Shown here piece after piece: positions 4,356-26,608 of a DNA stretch of 64,000 nucleotides; within the stretch, counting starts at the first letter, position 1, and each line of letters begins with the position of its first letter. The DNA is taken from positions 1-64,000 of the forward strand of contig JAFIGH010000010.1 in NCBI GenBank assembly GCA_020831525.1, in the 5' to 3' direction. The translations under genes were made by a program, and so were the position numbers. This DNA comes from Opitutales bacterium. GTDB taxonomy: Bacteria; Verrucomicrobiota; Verrucomicrobiia; Opitutales; Oceanipulchritudinaceae. The notes under the pieces were generated by a model that saw only the letters and a list, made by a program, of their open reading frames with translations, did no database searches and was not told where the DNA came from.

Positions 4356-5693
4356 ATGCTCCCGGCGGTCCGCCTGCTTCTCGGGTTGCTCCTACCGGCA
4401 CTGCCGGCCGTCCTTTCCTCCGCCCATCCAGCTGTTGTCGCCGGCCCCTACGCCGGATACATCTTGCCCCGCGAGGCGTCGCTTGTCGTCGACACGGCGG
4501 AGGAAGCCGTTGTCACCGCCGAACTCCGTTCACCGGACGACCCGGACGCGCGGCAATCCCGCACAGTGATCACGGACGCCGACAATGGGTTCCGCGCAAT
4601 CTTCCTCTTCTCCGGACTCCGCGCCGATACCCGCTACACGTACGGAATCTCCATCAACGGCGAACCGCCCACAGAAGCGCTCCGCGGTGCCTTCCGCACG
4701 CCGCCGCCGCCCCTTGAAGTCGCTCCGGAGCGCCCGTTACGCGTTGCCTTCGTCGGCGCACGCCATCCCGCCGCACCGGGCGTCCCTCCCGAACAAAATG
4801 CCCTACCCGCTCTCGCCGACAGCAGGGTTGACGGCGTCATCTGGACCGGCGGGCAACAGCCGGTCGACCGCCAGTCCACACCGACCGCCGATGGACTGCG
4901 AAGGCAATACCGGACTCTCTTTGAAGAGCCCGACCTCGCACCGCTCCTGCGCAACACCGCCCAATACAGCGTCTGGTCCCGCTACGAAGCAGGACATCCC
5001 CGGTCCGGCAACCGCTGGATCCACCGCGCCGGCGCCACCGACGCCTTTTGCAAATCGCTTCCGCGAACGGTCTGCGGGCACCCTGGGTTCGGCGGCACGG
5101 CGTCGCAGGTCCGCCTCGGGCCCGCTGAGTTTTTCTTTCTCGATGCGGTTTCCTTCCACCGTTCTGCCGGCACCGGCGCACCCGCCGCCTTTGGCGAAAC
5201 CCAGCTCGCGTGGCTGCTCGACGCTCTAGAAGCCAGCGACGCGCCCTTCCGCGTCGTTATCGCCGGAAGGTCCCTCCTCACCCCGGTCGACCAAGGACAC
5301 ACATGGCAGTTCGCCCGCGCCGAGCGCAATGGCTTCCTCGAGGCACTCCGCGCCGCCGCGGTGCCGGGCGTCTTTCTTGTCACCGGCGCCGCCCCCGAGG
5401 GAGAGATGACCCGCATCTCGCGCACCGGTGCCTACCCCTTGCACGAACTTTCACTCGGACCCGTACGCAGCGGCGGTGCCCCGGAAACGTCGCGGCCCGC
5501 CCTCAATTACGACAGGATGCCGGGTACCCGCGTGGACACGGCACACTTTGCCGTAGCCGAATTCGGCAGCGACCGCGGCGAACCGTCGATGAGGATCACC
5601 GTCATCGATGCAGCGGGAGAATCCCTGTGGCGCGATACCTTCCGCGCCTCCGAGCTTCGTCAGCGTGAGGCGAGCCAACGCAGCACACCCTGA
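4356..5693 (+). CDS. PhoD-like metallophosphatase homologue lacking catalytic residues
   Basis: Secreted 445-residue protein with a signal-peptide-like N-terminus (residues 1-22), a beta-sandwich N-domain of the PhoD/purple phosphatase type (about 30-115) and a C-terminal phosphatase fold (about 127-420). The fold can be followed motif by motif, yet every metal or catalytic signature is changed: the GSC strand is GAR (134-136), the FLGDN metal motif is WTGGQ (163-167), WDDHD is WSRYE (207-211), and the SGDRH motif is TGAAP (343-347). Flanking residues such as ETQLAWLLDAL and YPLHEL are kept. I infer a pseudoenzyme, perhaps binding rather than hydrolysing. The 3' end overlaps the opposite-strand DUF2851 gene by 34 bp. 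Confidence 0.75.
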   Translation: MLPAVRLLLGLLLPALPAVLSSAHPAVVAGPYAGYILPREASLVVDTAEEAVVTAELRSPDDPDARQSRTVITDADNGFRAIFLFSGLRADTRYTYGISINGEPPTEALRGAFRTPPPPLEVAPERPLRVAFVGARHPAAPGVPPEQNALPALADSRVDGVIWTGGQQPVDRQSTPTADGLRRQYRTLFEEPDLAPLLRNTAQYSVWSRYEAGHPRSGNRWIHRAGATDAFCKSLPRTVCGHPGFGGTASQVRLGPAEFFFLDAVSFHRSAGTGAPAAFGETQLAWLLDALEASDAPFRVVIAGRSLLTPVDQGHTWQFARAERNGFLEALRAAAVPGVFLVTGAAPEGEMTRISRTGAYPLHELSLGPVRSGGAPETSRPALNYDRMPGTRVDTAHFAVAEFGSDRGEPSMRITVIDAAGESLWRDTFRASELRQREASQRSTP

Positions 5694-21111: not shown

Positions 21112-22827
21112 ATGAATGGAATGTTCAATTCAAAGAAGTGGAAAGCGGCTCTGTTGATGGGCGCGGCGGGAAGCATGGTTTGCGGCGCGGCGGAAGACGT
21201 GGCCGGAGCGGATTCGGCACCGCCGAATTTCATCATCCTCATCGCGGACGACCTGAACGATTCGGTGGAGGGCATGGGCGGGCACCCGCAGGCGATCACG
21301 CCCAACCTCGACCGCATGGCGGCGGAGGGCCTGCGCATGCAGAACGCGCATTGCACGGTGGCGATCTGCGGGCCGTCGCGGGCGAGTATGTGGACGGGCA
21401 TGTCGCCGCTGCGGACGGGCTATTACGGCTACCGGCAGCAGCAGAACAACTGGCGGGAGTTCGGGGAAATGAAGGATGCCGTCACGCTCATGGAGTCTTT
21501 TGCGGCGCGCGGCTACGCTGTCATGGGCACGGGCAAAATCTTCCACAACGGCCATGAGGACAACAGCGTGTTCAACACGCCCATGGACGGGCTGGAGCCG
21601 AGCTTTGGTCCCGCACCGTGGGACGGCGAGAGGTATTTCCCGTGGAACAAGCCGGAGGGCCGGGGCCATCCGGCGATGCCGGGTGACCGCACGGAGAGCT
21701 ACTGGGGCGGGTTCGGGCGGCTGAGCGAAATCCCGGAGGTCGACGGCTGGCGCGGCTGGATGGCCGACTGGGCCTGGGGCGAAGTGGGCGATCCCGATTC
21801 ATGGCGCTTCCGCTGGGAATCTCCCGACGACCGCGACCGGATGCCCGACGAAATCTCCGCGCAATGGGCGGCGGAGAAGCTGCGCTCGGCGGATGCGCGG
21901 GAGGAACCCTTCGTCATGATCGTGGGCTTCAACCGCCCCCATACCCCGATGTATGCCCCAGACGAGTTTTTCGAGCTATGGGATCCCGCCGAAATCCGGT
22001 TGCCGCCCTACCTGCCCAACGATCTGGAGGATATTCCCGAAATCCTGTGGAAGGACCCGGAAACCGGAGAGCGTACCCACCATGCCATGCGTCTGCCGCA
22101 ACTCATGCGCCAGGGCGACGCCACGCCGGAGGGCGGCTTCGAGTGGTGGCGGCGCTGGACGCACGCCTACCTTGCCTGCACGGCCTTTGTCGACTATCAG
22201 GTCGGCGTCATCCTGGACGCCTTGGAAGACAGCCCGCACCGCGACAACACCTACGTGATCTTCACCTCAGACCACGGCTACCATATGGGCGAAAAGGACT
22301 TCATGGGCAAGACGACGATCTGGGAAGAGAGCACCCGCGTGCCCTTGCTCTGGGTCGGACCGGACATTCCCGCGGGCACGGAGACAAATGCCCCCGTCAG
22401 CCTGCTCGACGTCTACCCCACCCTTGTCGAACTCGCGGGCCTCGCGCCCGCGCCGCCCGGAGACCGTGCCCCACCGCTCGACGGCGACTCCATCGCCGAT
22501 CTCCTGCGCGACCCCGCCTCCGTCACCGCGGTCGATGACCGGCGGGGCGTCCTCTCGCACCTCGCCGGACCCAGACACCTCGAACCGCACACCTATTCGG
22601 AACCCGCGTGGAACCACCACAGCATCCGCACGGAACGCTACCGCTACACCCTCTGCAGCGACGGCAGCGAGGAACTCTACGACCTCCTCAAAGATCCCCA
22701 TGCCTGGGACAACCGCGCGGGCGACCCGGACTACCGTGACATCCGCGCCGACCTCGCCGCCTACCTCGCGGAGCGCCTCGCCGCCGCCCCCGGCCCGCAA
22801 GGGCGCTCAGGCGAGAACCGGCCTTGA
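21112..22827 (+). CDS. Type I sulfatase, iduronate-2-sulfatase-like
   Basis: Secreted sulfatase of 571 residues (alkaline-phosphatase superfamily). Residues 1-27 look like a signal peptide. Metal-binding D46-D47 sit in LIADDLND, and the formylglycine motif is C86-G-P-S-R with ASMWTG after it, so it needs a formylglycine-generating enzyme, not seen here. VMGTGKIFHNG, NRPHTPMY and TSDHGYHMGEK are typical of the S1_7 (iduronate-2-sulfatase-like) group. It stands apart from the two sulfatases in the xylan locus and on the opposite strand. Sulfated sugar substrate is inferred from family only. Confidence 0.92.
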   Translation: MNGMFNSKKWKAALLMGAAGSMVCGAAEDVAGADSAPPNFIILIADDLNDSVEGMGGHPQAITPNLDRMAAEGLRMQNAHCTVAICGPSRASMWTGMSPLRTGYYGYRQQQNNWREFGEMKDAVTLMESFAARGYAVMGTGKIFHNGHEDNSVFNTPMDGLEPSFGPAPWDGERYFPWNKPEGRGHPAMPGDRTESYWGGFGRLSEIPEVDGWRGWMADWAWGEVGDPDSWRFRWESPDDRDRMPDEISAQWAAEKLRSADAREEPFVMIVGFNRPHTPMYAPDEFFELWDPAEIRLPPYLPNDLEDIPEILWKDPETGERTHHAMRLPQLMRQGDATPEGGFEWWRRWTHAYLACTAFVDYQVGVILDALEDSPHRDNTYVIFTSDHGYHMGEKDFMGKTTIWEESTRVPLLWVGPDIPAGTETNAPVSLLDVYPTLVELAGLAPAPPGDRAPPLDGDSIADLLRDPASVTAVDDRRGVLSHLAGPRHLEPHTYSEPAWNHHSIRTERYRYTLCSDGSEELYDLLKDPHAWDNRAGDPDYRDIRADLAAYLAERLAAAPGPQGRSGENRP

Positions 22828-23014
22828 CGACCTTGCCCGCGGTTCTCCGCAGCTCGCCGCCGCCCTCCCCGCACCGGCGGAGCGCATGGGAGTAAACGAC
22901 CGCCCATTATCGTTGGTTCAACATCTCCATTGCAAAAGCTTGATCACCATGCCGTCAAAAACGACAAAGACATTGTTCTGAGTGTCCACAAAGGGCTGGC
23001 ATCGTCGAGGTGTG

Positions 23015-23227
23015 CTACTCCGATGGAGCAGAGGGAGGGACGACCGGCGCGGAATCGGAGTTGGCACTACCGTCTGGTTGTGCTTTCAGCTTTGGATTCA
23101 CGAAAACAATGGCTCCATCTCTCCAGACAGGTATCTGCAATCCAAAACGGGCAGCTCGTTCACGGGCGATGACCGCTGCGCGGCGCATACCCTTGAGTGC
23201 TAAATCCTTATCTTCCGTGTTTTTCAT
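23015..23227 (-). CDS. Small partner of zeta-like toxin
   Basis: A 70-residue protein, ALKGMRRAAVIARERAARFGLQIPVW-type (helix) then RDGAIVFVNP (strand), with a proline-rich tail. Small proteins of this shape commonly sit directly next to zeta-toxin-like kinases and are presumed antidotes. The ATG overlaps the toxin stop by 4 bp. The toxin-first order differs from classic epsilon/zeta. Assignment as antitoxin is inference from position and shape. Confidence 0.65.
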   Translation of the reverse strand: MKNTEDKDLALKGMRRAAVIARERAARFGLQIPVWRDGAIVFVNPKLKAQPDGSANSDSAPVVPPSAPSE

Positions 23228-23736
23228 GATGATCTTTCCAAAACAATAGGGTCATCGCCGCTGTTGTCGAACACGATCCACTCATCTGCAAGGTTTCGGT
23301 AAAGCTTCGTGAAATTCTGCCAACTGCGCTTGAATCGCCTCCTGATATCAGCTGCTGGGATGTTGTGTCCGCCCTCCTTGACCCGGCATCTGACGCGCTC
23401 AATTGCCAATTCCTCGGAGACCAGCTGGAGATAATAAATGACGATTCGGTAGCCTTTCTTTTTTAGGCTTTCGATACGCCGTAGGTGTCCGGTTCCACTT
23501 AGCGTCGACTCGAAGGCGAAGGTGATTTCTCTATTCGAGTATTCCTCTATCTTCCGAAACAAAATCTTTCCTGCTTCTACACCCGCATTTTCAGGACGAA
23601 GAGGAGAAATTCCTTTAGCAATCATGTCAGCGTTTACAAAATAAAAACAATTTGCTTCATTGGGTAGGAACGACTCTGCAAAAGACGATTTACCAGCACC
23701 GTTCGGTCCAGCGACTATGAAACATGTTTTTTTCAT
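23224..23736 (-). CDS. Zeta-toxin-like P-loop kinase
   Basis: A 170-residue AAA/zeta-toxin-family protein. Walker A is GPNGAGKS (residues 10-17), followed by the family's FVNADMIAKGISPLRPE, the ETL-type strand ITFAFESTLSGTGHLRRI, and the RVKEGGHNIP segment with R..RF..S near residue 135. Zeta toxins phosphorylate UDP-N-acetylglucosamine and block wall synthesis; short chromosomal relatives of this type are less studied. It starts 17 nt after the GTT of an attC-like site (23754-23756) and is coupled to the small partner gene, so the pair may be one mobile cassette. Confidence 0.82.
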   Translation of the reverse strand: MKKTCFIVAGPNGAGKSSFAESFLPNEANCFYFVNADMIAKGISPLRPENAGVEAGKILFRKIEEYSNREITFAFESTLSGTGHLRRIESLKKKGYRIVIYYLQLVSEELAIERVRCRVKEGGHNIPAADIRRRFKRSWQNFTKLYRNLADEWIVFDNSGDDPIVLERSS

Positions 23737-23753
23737 TTATTCATTTCCTGCAC

Positions 23754-23813
23754 AACATCGAGCACACTCGCCGAATGGGCGCTAGCCCATTCGGTTGAGT
23801 GCTGCGTCTGGTT
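23754..23813 (-). repeat. attC-like recombination site 2
   Basis: A 60-bp imperfect inverted repeat, AAC...GTT at its ends. Read on the minus strand the left arm is AACCAGACGCAGCACTCAA and the inner stem CCGAATGGGC pairs perfectly around a 4-base loop (23771-23794). Compared with the right arm, the left arm has one unpaired G before CACTC and one extra A after it, the same positions as in the site at 24698-24759. It follows the HEAT-like gene and precedes the zeta gene. Confidence 0.65.
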
Positions 23814-23836
23814 CTGTGCTTGGTTGTGCCTGAGCG

Positions 23837-24682
23837 TCACTGCCATGCATCATGCCTGGCGTAAATGAGATCAACCTGAACAACTCCTTCTGTCTTCCGA
23901 ACGTACCTGATACCTACTTTCTTATCCTCTATCGAATAAAATCCCTGCCTTCGGGCCAATGCAGAAGGAAAGTCGAAGGAACCCTGTTCTGGGTCCGGCT
24001 CTCCCAACAGATCTCTGAGGAACCGAGCTACGGGTTCAAATTCCTTTTCGAAAATATAAATCGTAGCTCCACCGGAATTGAGCGAGTAACGCCACTGCTT
24101 GCCAAGGATGCTGAGGTCCGCGTCATGCTGAATCTGAGCACCGCCCGTCTTGATAGCATCAGCGAGGAACTTTCCGACAGAGCCTTTCCCTTCCTCCGCG
24201 ATCTCGTAAGGCTCGTAACGGTTCCCAAGCCGCGGGCGGTGTCCAAGATTCGATTTCCAATTGAGCTGGAAATCGGGATTTTCTTCGAGCCACCAACTTC
24301 GCCATGCGTCAAAATCCGCTCCAAACGACTTTTTCGTAAGATCCTCAAGCCAACCAACTATCTCATCGTCTCCCCGACTGGCAGTGTGCCGAAGAGCCTT
24401 TATGAGGTAGGGAATCGCTTCTTCACGTCCGAGACTGCCGAGATAACGCGCCGCATTCACCCACAGATAGGCGTCGGGAACTTTCACGTCCTCCAATGCA
24501 TGCTCGAGGGCTATGGGATCCTGTCGCGAGGTGAGTATGGAATACGAGTCATAGACGCGTTCCATATTCTGCTTCTGCTCGATGACGCGAAGGTGCAAGT
24601 GGCTGGGGGGCGACTCCGCAAAGGTGCTCACCAACAAGCACGCGGCGAGGAGGCTAATGATGGTTGTAAGAATAATCCTCAT
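23837..24682 (-). CDS. Secreted HEAT-repeat-like protein, 281 aa
   Basis: Residues 1-22 form a signal peptide (LLAACLLVSTFAES). Residues 55-115 resemble a HEAT/PBS-type helical repeat (DAYLWVNAARYLGSLGREEAIPYLIKAL, quoted in part), then comes a WLEDLTKKSFG and W-rich stretch (DAWRSWWLEENPDF) seen in other repeat proteins. The C-terminal half is unassigned. Base composition is lower in GC than the flanks. It starts 15 nt after the GTT of an attC-like site and ends 24 bp before the next one, as expected for an integron cassette gene. The function is unknown. Confidence 0.7.
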   Translation of the reverse strand: MRIILTTIISLLAACLLVSTFAESPPSHLHLRVIEQKQNMERVYDSYSILTSRQDPIALEHALEDVKVPDAYLWVNAARYLGSLGREEAIPYLIKALRHTASRGDDEIVGWLEDLTKKSFGADFDAWRSWWLEENPDFQLNWKSNLGHRPRLGNRYEPYEIAEEGKGSVGKFLADAIKTGGAQIQHDADLSILGKQWRYSLNSGGATIYIFEKEFEPVARFLRDLLGEPDPEQGSFDFPSALARRQGFYSIEDKKVGIRYVRKTEGVVQVDLIYARHDAWQ

Positions 24683-24697
24683 TTAATTTTCCCACAG

Positions 24698-24759
24698 AAC
24701 GTAAAGGACACTCATGGAGAGAGGCGGCAGCCTCTCGGAATTGAGTGCTCCGCTTGGTT
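24698..24759 (-). repeat. attC-like recombination site 1
   Basis: A 62-bp imperfect inverted repeat. On the minus strand it reads AACCAAGCGGAGCACTCAA, an inner GAGAGGC/GCCTCTC stem with a 4-base loop, ATGAGTGTCC and a final GTT. Its arms pair with a single bulged G before CACTC and a bulged A after, and its outer half is shared with the site at 23754-23813. The VOC gene stop codon (TAA) overlaps its first AAC, a common arrangement in gene cassettes. Confidence 0.65.
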
Positions 24760-25129
24760 AGCCGTTCCCTTCCTCGACCGGACATCCGAAGCAGATCAAA
24801 TTCCCGTCGGTGTCCTTAATCTGAAAATCTCTCATCCCGTATGGATATGTGTTCAATGGAGATGTGACTTCGGCTCCCTTCGCTCTAATCGCGTCGTAGT
24901 AAATATCGACCTCGTCACAAAATACATAAACGGATCCCATTCCACGCCGTTCGGCATTTTCTTCTGACCTGCATAGGTGAAAGATGACATCGTTCCTTTT
25001 TACTCCGGCGTAGTAAGCGGGTTCGCCATAGACGAACTCCCTGGAGAACCCAAGGATATCACAATAGAAAGCAATAGCTTTGTTCAGATCGGCGACCTGA
25101 AGAATGGGGGATGCGCATGATATATTCAT
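24758..25129 (-). CDS. VOC (glyoxalase/bleomycin-resistance) family protein
   Basis: A 123-residue cytoplasmic protein with one vicinal-oxygen-chelate module pair: ASPILQVADLNKAIAFYCDILGF at the N-terminus, VIFHLCRSEEN in the middle, and the C-terminal DVDIYYDAIRAKGAEV, YGMRDFQIKDTDGNLICFG. Metal-ligand positions H55-like and E/D positions are partly present, but substrate cannot be read off. The ATG at 25129 fits the family; an open frame extends to 25189. It begins 18 nt after a GTT core (25148-25150, minus strand), and its stop lies in an attC-like site. Confidence 0.85.
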   Translation of the reverse strand: MNISCASPILQVADLNKAIAFYCDILGFSREFVYGEPAYYAGVKRNDVIFHLCRSEENAERRGMGSVYVFCDEVDIYYDAIRAKGAEVTSPLNTYPYGMRDFQIKDTDGNLICFGCPVEEGNG

Positions 25130-25214
25130 AATTCTATTTTCTGGGCTAACAGTGATATGGGGAATACTCAGTTTCGCATTTGTCGGCATCGACGCGCGAT
25201 ATGCGGCCCGGGGC

Positions 25215-25631
25215 TCACGCCAACAATGGAAGTTTTGACTCTCGATAACAGCATGATGCGCCTAGATTTACGATTTCGTGCACAGTGTCAAGAGTTTCGC
25301 GGCGAGTGCGGAACGGGCGATGGCCCCTCCTGAAAAAGGAATACCCGCGGCGCATGCGATCCTGTCGTGCATCAATTCGCGCACTGAGTTTCGCATATTC
25401 CGGGTTGATATCACTCGCCCTCACGGGCGAAAAGTCCGCAAACACCTGAAGTTCAACAGAATGCGTTTCCTCTTCGGTAAATCCCCACGCGTCGCAGTCC
25501 GGAAAATGCGTCACCCAACGGTTGTTAAGATGCACGGAAGAAACGGCCGGCGTAGGAACGGGAAGCCCTTGGCGCTCGGATAAGATAGGAATCGGAGAAC
25601 GGACCAACGGTGTTTCGCTGTCTGAAGACAT
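25215..25631 (-). CDS. Hypothetical protein, 138 aa
   Basis: An open frame from ATG 25631, with a proline-rich start (PIPILSERQGLPVPTPAVSS) and a composition unlike the antisense shadows. Segments such as HFPDCDAWGFTEEETHSVEL and AKLSARIDARQDRMRRG look protein-like, and the base composition is intermediate. I do not recognise a family and see no signal peptide. It ends 65 bp before the GTT that opens the VOC cassette, and lies 42 bp downstream of the permease operon. It could be a degraded or cassette-borne gene. Confidence 0.4.
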   Translation of the reverse strand: MSSDSETPLVRSPIPILSERQGLPVPTPAVSSVHLNNRWVTHFPDCDAWGFTEEETHSVELQVFADFSPVRASDINPEYAKLSARIDARQDRMRRGYSFFRRGHRPFRTRRETLDTVHEIVNLGASCCYRESKLPLLA

Positions 25632-25672
25632 GCGCTCCAGTGAGTCAGTCGCGTATCCGGGCGCCGTTGCCC

Positions 25673-26608
25673 CTACCCCTTCACCGCGCCGGAGGTGAGG
25701 CCGCTGATGAACTCGCGCTGGAGGAGGAAGAAGAGAATGACGGGCGGGAGTATGGCGATGAGGGTGCCGGCGAGGAAGACGCCGTATTGCGAGGAGTAGT
25801 CGCCCACGTATTGCTGGAGGATGACGGGGAGGGTGAGCTTGTGGGTGGAGTGGAGAAAGACGTTGGGGGCGATGAAGTTGTTCCACGAGGCGAGGAAGGC
25901 GACGAGGCAGAAGGCGCCGCTCATGGGACGGACAAGCGGCAGGGCGACGGAAAAGTAGAGCCGGAACTCGCTCGCGCCCTCCACGCGGGCGGCCTCGAGG
26001 AGTTCCTTGGGTACGCCGAGCATGGCCTGGCGGAACAGAAAGATGCCGTAGCCGCTGACGGCGGAGGGCACGATGAGGGCGAGAAAGGAGTCGATCCAGC
26101 CGAGGTTGACGATGATCATGTAGACCGGGGCGAGCAGAAGGATGGGCGGGATCATCATGGACCCGAGGATGAAGCCGAGGACGAGACCCGATCCGCGGAA
26201 GGAATACTTCGCGAGGGCAAAGCCCGCCATCGACGAGGTGAAGAGCTGGAGGCCTGTTTGGGTGCAGGCGAGAAAGAGGGAGTTGAAGATGAAGAGCCAG
26301 AAGGTGAAGGTCCCCGCCGAGGTCTGCCGCGGCTCGAAGAGGACGCGCAGGTTTTTGAAGTTGAGTGTGTCGGAGGACCACTCCGAGAGCGGGGGAAAGA
26401 ACACGTATTCATTGAGAACGTCCGGATCTTTGAAGGTCGCCGCGACGAGCCACGCGAAGGGCGCGAGGACGAGGAACGACGCCGCGAGGATGAGGGCGTA
26501 GCGCAAGAAGGTGTTCGCCGAGGCCCCGTGGTCACTCCGCAAAAACCAGAGAGCGCCGTAGACCGCCGCGGCGGCGAGGACGAGGGCATGGAAGATGTTG
26601 AAGCTCAT
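25673..26608 (-). CDS. ABC sugar transporter permease, MalG-like (CUT1)
   Basis: Inner-membrane subunit of a carbohydrate ABC importer, 311 residues with about seven hydrophobic helices. The EAA loop reads EAARVEGASEFRLYFSVALPLVRP near residue 200, the contact site for the ATPase. ATG overlaps the stop of the MalF-like permease by 4 bp. It completes a set of binding protein and two permeases; no ATPase gene follows, so a shared MsmX/UgpC-like ATPase elsewhere is expected. The N-terminus is longer than usual, with an extra hydrophobic helix before the transport domain. Confidence 0.92.
   Translation of the reverse strand: MSFNIFHALVLAAAAVYGALWFLRSDHGASANTFLRYALILAASFLVLAPFAWLVAATFKDPDVLNEYVFFPPLSEWSSDTLNFKNLRVLFEPRQTSAGTFTFWLFIFNSLFLACTQTGLQLFTSSMAGFALAKYSFRGSGLVLGFILGSMMIPPILLLAPVYMIIVNLGWIDSFLALIVPSAVSGYGIFLFRQAMLGVPKELLEAARVEGASEFRLYFSVALPLVRPMSGAFCLVAFLASWNNFIAPNVFLHSTHKLTLPVILQQYVGDYSSQYGVFLAGTLIAILPPVILFFLLQREFISGLTSGAVKG

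Follow-up and report, generated by a model that had tools for sequence, protein, structure and literature searches.

How did three gene cassettes come to stand in a row, all facing one way, at a chromosomal place that has no integrase of its own? This question is raised by a stretch of DNA from an Opitutales bacterium (termed here the window: positions 1 to 64,000 of contig C6, within a draft genome of 5.3 Mb in 184 contigs), in which the original prediction had placed an integron-like array of three same-strand units, joined by two attC-like sites and lacking an integrase. The analysis supports an integrase-less cassette array and refines it: three attC sites are present, an attI-like leader stands at the start of the array, and an integron integrase (IntI) is encoded elsewhere in the genome. 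Most likely the array is the relic of a second integron lineage without its integrase--that is, a three-cassette CALIN, the term used by IntegronFinder for a cluster of attC sites without an integron integrase (PMC9024848), in this instance one that has kept its attI-like leader. Integrase-less arrays are common, and the array itself is of this known kind; the unusual part is the recurring integrase-less leader.

Two of the sites lie on the minus strand exactly where they had been predicted, at 24698-24759 (attC1) and 23754-23813 (attC2), and have the shared features ascribed to them: AAC and GTT ends, AGCACTCAA and GAGTGT, and a bulged G and a bulged A at matching places. Their anatomy is that of attC sites, with AAC/GTT ends, an L stem with bulged bases and a variable hairpin. 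Both were scored with a covariance model (termed here R1) that was built from 20 aligned attC sites in arrays adjoining intI genes in other families of the order; the model is home-made and not IntegronFinder's, and no sequence of this genus is in its training set. Within the 64-kb window R1 finds only two matches with E<1, namely attC1 (38.6 bits, E 2.1e-6) and attC2 (23.0 bits, E 0.0065, only a moderate score), where the E-values are rough owing to a shortened calibration; the third-best match (11.5 bits, E 2.4) is degenerate. Hence the covariance-model check proposed for the window does give a score to each predicted site, and the array has at least two attC sites by such a model. R1 also recovers many sites of the relatives' arrays that were left out of the model and, in 154 kb of DNA from this genome and its congeners, finds one further match, on contig C31. 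Genome-wide it returned no matches; this run, however, scored just 150 of 5160 candidates, missed the window sites too and so carries no weight. A scan of the window at Rfam gathering thresholds returned no matches. A finder based on the strict outer consensus RYYYAAC/GTTRRRY was dropped, as it matched reversed sequence as often as real sequence; the window's boxes GGCTAAC/GTTAGCC and ACAGAAC/GTTCTGT depart from this consensus, which is not defining in this order, because the relatives' arrays depart from it too.

A third site, attC3 (23001-23079, minus strand), was recognized from its sequence and fold. The original prediction had seen no site after the partner of the zeta-like toxin, and this is where attC3 lies, its R'' box GCACAAC matching the GTTGTGC with which that cassette starts. 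It is the last site of the array and ends in G|AT rather than G|TT; its spacers and bulges are as in attC1 and attC2, and its L stem has a single mismatch. Some caution is due with this site: its left end is all that R1 aligns, the 7-mer GCACAAC occurs at 23829 as well, and a gene reads through it.

In a real cassette, a single attC site supplies both the letters that follow the opening GTT and those that precede the closing AAC, so that the two sets are complementary. This provides a test that is independent of the criteria underlying the original prediction and that, with four free letters beyond AAC/GTT, would be passed by chance about once in 256 times per cassette (for the VOC and HEAT cassettes). 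The R' and R'' boxes are complementary at seven of seven positions in all three window cassettes, each of which lies on the minus strand: cassette 1 (24700-25149, starting with TTAGCC and ending on the attC1 G; GTTAGCC/GGCTAAC), cassette 2 (23756-24699, starting with TTCTGT and ending on the attC2 G; GTTCTGT/ACAGAAC) and cassette 3 (23003-23755, starting with TTGTGC and ending on the attC3 G; GTTGTGC/GCACAAC). The same holds for a GNAT-like cassette on C31 (GTTCGCG/CGCGAAC, again seven of seven) and, as far as they can be read, for the first cassettes on contigs C5 and C60. Taken with the covariance matches and the common strand, this complementarity supports the view that the three units form a cassette array.

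The genes of the array all lie on the minus strand. Cassette 1 carries a gene of the VOC/glyoxalase superfamily (24758-25129, 123 aa; Pfam PF00903, E 2e-17, obtained on the longer frame 24758-25189). The gene of cassette 2 (23837-24682, 281 aa) has a signal-like start and one weak HEAT_PBS match, just under the cut-off (PF03130, E 6.5e-4). Cassette 3 carries a gene for a zeta-toxin/AAA_33-like kinase (23224-23736, 170 aa; PF06414, E 6.5e-10, and PF13671, E 3e-7) together with a small partner gene (23015-23227, 70 aa), a frame with no Pfam match that reads through attC3 just as the C31 gene reads through its own attC. Ten loci with zeta homologues elsewhere in the order, scanned with R1, gave no attC match.

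The array is set between convergent genes for a sulfatase (21112-22827, plus strand; PF00884) and an ABC-transporter permease (25673-26608, minus strand; PF00528). The AT-richer composition that had been noted for it is borne out, with a GC content of 0.46-0.53 against 0.61-0.68 in the surroundings. The sulfatase gene is 89% identical in congener G130, and the permease gene about 90% identical in congeners G130 and G167, in each case up to the stop codon and divergent from there. Comparing these junctions with relatives, as had been proposed, gave an answer in part: the flanks are about 90% identical and have none of the cassettes next to them; the congener contigs, however, break there, with the two flanks on separate contigs in G130 and only the permease side available in G167. 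Up to these breaks, neither congener has the genes of the array as a fixed chromosomal block. The sequences thus compared suggest that cassettes were likely gained or lost between relatives at the gap between the sulfatase and the permease. Just past the permease stop, a stretch of about 100 nt (25570-25670) recurs at several places in the genome itself and in G167 with 70-81% identity. Shortly after the permease stop in G167 (contig C279; L187, about 4840-4875) there is also GCGAACCAAGCGGAGCAG, which shares AACCAAGCGGAGCA with attC1 and may be the remnant of an attC at the corresponding position; R1 reported no match at this stretch.

At the other end of the array, before the VOC cassette, lies the attI-like leader (25150-25318, minus strand, about 165 nt), which ends in CACTG|TT with the crossover between G (25150) and TT (25149-25148). 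The original prediction had described a third GTT before the VOC gene as a poorly formed site; it is instead the crossover point of this leader and not a poor attC. Copies of the leader occur at five loci of the genome (the window and contigs C31, C132, C103 and C45) and at two congener loci (one each in G167 and G130), and were absent from the other 14 genomes sampled in the family. The window copy is 79-83% identical to the better copies over 159-176 nt; that on C45 has an internal deletion. Mean pairwise identity among copies is 0.85 over the 40 nt leading up to the crossover versus 0.26 after it, and different genes begin at one and the same point behind them. It is because the sequence is fixed up to the G|TT crossover and unrelated beyond it that the leader is taken to be attI-like; it is not termed attI outright because the only divergent intI beside any copy is a fragment, on C45, no intact intI having been found next to any copy. 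A recognizable attC follows the leader in the window and on C31 only, and the C103, C45 and G130 copies are altered at the crossover.

These features suggest that the leader served as a recombination partner for cassettes, and it may also act as their promoter. A TTGACA box (25286-25291, minus strand), possibly the -35 element of a cassette promoter, stands 143 nt from the crossover, and six leader copies have a TTGAC(A/G) box at this distance; no good -10 element comes after TTGACA, and a promoter scan found no consensus promoter there. Translation of the seven copies reveals, in addition, a short frame, MPTNAKLSIPHIT (25150-25189, minus strand), that crosses the crossover in frame with the start codon of the VOC gene, an ATG lying 20 nt past the crossover. 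This frame fuses with or stops at the ATG of the first gene in six of the seven copies: it is open into that ATG in the window and on C31 and C45, its stop overlaps or abuts the ATG on C103 and in G167 and G130, and C132 is the exception. It lacks an ATG of its own in C45, G167 and G130, and no Shine-Dalgarno sequence was seen at it. In class 1 integrons, ORF-11 of attI1 likewise spans the crossover, has its stop codon supplied by the cassette and brings about translational coupling (PMC8876359). The likeness to the short frame is one of arrangement--both cross the crossover, are ended by the inserted cassette and can couple to a start codon--and the leader differs from attI1/ORF-11 in that no Shine-Dalgarno sequence was seen and no integrase is adjacent. 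This suggests a junction-crossing leader frame like ORF-11 in another integron lineage.

As had been predicted, there is no integrase at the array: the window yielded no IntI-like match worth keeping, and none was found upstream of the leader. The proposed search for intI elsewhere did locate an intact integron integrase gene, at positions 577-1911 of contig C5. Its full-length product scores 341.6 bits against TIGR02249 (cut-off 265), can be aligned to 2a3v, the structure of the Vibrio cholerae IntI, across both the IntI-specific region and the HxxR ... Y motifs, and is 90% identical to the integrase of the metagenome-assembled genome Opitutales bacterium CSSed162cmA_196. A second copy, on C60 (L019:5001-5362), is about 90% identical to the first and has residues 76-397 deleted, but retains its attI and first cassette. 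C5 and C60 have an attI of their own in common, which is unrelated to the leader and, when tried as its source, gave no match; both contigs end just inside the attC of the first cassette. The fragment on C45 (L018:5434-5785) comes from a different intI lineage; over about 50 residues its identity to IntIs from other families is 57-72%. It is separated from the leader copy by about 50 nt and lies on the other strand; divergence of intI from attI is the usual integron layout. Several intI genes per genome are not rare in this order; therefore, multiple leader copies need no new mechanism. Two side observations concern these fragments. The C45 intI fragment and its deleted leader copy directly follow a likely tRNA or tmRNA 3' end, which is a usual site for genomic islands, and C30 (L020:3681-3902) carries the C-terminal part of another IntI-like integrase, whose identity to the IntIs of the order is 55-58% over 33 residues.

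From this perspective, the array would have arisen as follows. Each cassette, as a circle with its attC folded, would have been joined by an integron integrase to the G|TT of the leader, which would explain the common direction of all the genes. Transcription of the first cassette would start in the leader, and its translation would depend on read-through or coupling from the short frame. The integrase for which the leader was the attI would belong to a second lineage, the fragment divergent from the C45 leader copy being its likely remnant. The intI gene of this lineage would later have been lost, presumably from the window locus as well, with C45 caught midway through such a loss. Three origins have been proposed for CALINs, and the loss of intI is among them (PMC8618304). 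The C5 integrase, for its part, may still be able to move cassettes in trans.

That the hairpins are instead ordinary terminators or repeats that resemble attC sites by chance is hardly credible: they are indeed inverted repeats near gene ends, but R1 matches at both places and only there and the R boxes are complementary, which together refute this in practice, and the bulges are as in the relatives' arrays beside intI. Nor is it at all likely that rearrangement or misassembly detached the array from the C5 or C60 integron, given that it is internal to its contig, between genes conserved in congeners, and that its leader differs from the C5/C60 attI, even though arrays often break draft assemblies (PMC9024848) and C5 and C60 do end just inside the attC of their first cassette.

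Two further explanations invoke the C5 integrase acting in trans. It might have inserted the cassettes at some ordinary place in the chromosome (attG or a secondary site) between the sulfatase and permease genes, off-target insertion being one proposed CALIN origin (PMC8618304); an intact IntI is at hand elsewhere in the genome, and the array ends in G|AT, cleavage of GAT between G and A having been reported at secondary sites (PMC10127599). This is improbable, however, in view of the upstream junction, a 165-nt leader that is common to six other loci and conserved to the crossover, as an arbitrary site would not be. Somewhat less improbable, though still doubtful, is that the leader works as an active attI for the C5 integrase acting in trans, so that the genus keeps several integrase-less platforms. 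The presence of five copies within this genome, followed by different genes, the intact C5 integrase, the conserved crossover and short frame, and the reported mobilization of CALIN cassettes in trans (PMC12444791) are all consistent with this; against it, the attI beside the C5 intI does not resemble the leader, the C103, C45 and G130 copies are altered at the crossover, and a fragment of another intI lineage stands at one copy. The fuller version, in which attI-and-promoter platforms without integrases are dispersed in the genus and loaded with cassettes in trans, a leader peptide coupling translation to the landed gene, is a similarly long shot. A relic of a second lineage that lost its integrase accordingly remains the preferred reading.

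Among known systems, the array resembles CALINs in having at least two attC sites, cassettes on one strand and no adjacent intI, and differs from them in keeping a recognizable attI-like leader with copies at several genomic loci. In other genomes of the order (e.g., G126, G090 and G164), chromosomal integrons have the same attC form (AACCARNCG ... CGTT), spacers and bulges, but their arrays adjoin an intact intI, as the window array does not. Insertions at attG or secondary sites (PMC10127599, PMC12444791) likewise place cassettes away from an integrase and end arrays with G|AT; their upstream site is arbitrary, however, whereas the window junction is a repeated, conserved leader. Outside class 1 integrons attI is poorly described and is not sought by standard software (PMC9024848); where a leader is repeated, attI can be read by comparison, which offers a way to separate arrays that lost their integrase from off-target insertions.

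Finally, what looks like the 3' end of a group II intron occurs at four contig ends: L017:1-54 (C5), L019:5828-5880 (C60), L027:1-55 (C22) and the end of L028 (C135). Its Rfam match (RF00029) reaches only 19.5 bits (E 0.22) and is cut off, and a search for group II intron proteins gave only a weak fragment, on C47. On C5 and C60 the intron-like end lies inside the R'' box of the first cassette, opposite to the cassette gene, and group IIC-attC introns sit likewise in attC sites, opposite to the cassette gene (PMC7923331); on C22 and C135 it interrupts ordinary frames. A short hairpin-bearing stretch, GTGCGCCGAGCGAAGCG...GTGAAAGTCCGGACG, is common to L188:7580-7640 (C31), the tail of L206 (C47) and L186:7860-7910 (contig C346 of G130); it precedes small genes, some of them toxin-antitoxin-like, and possibly represents a group II intron 5' end.
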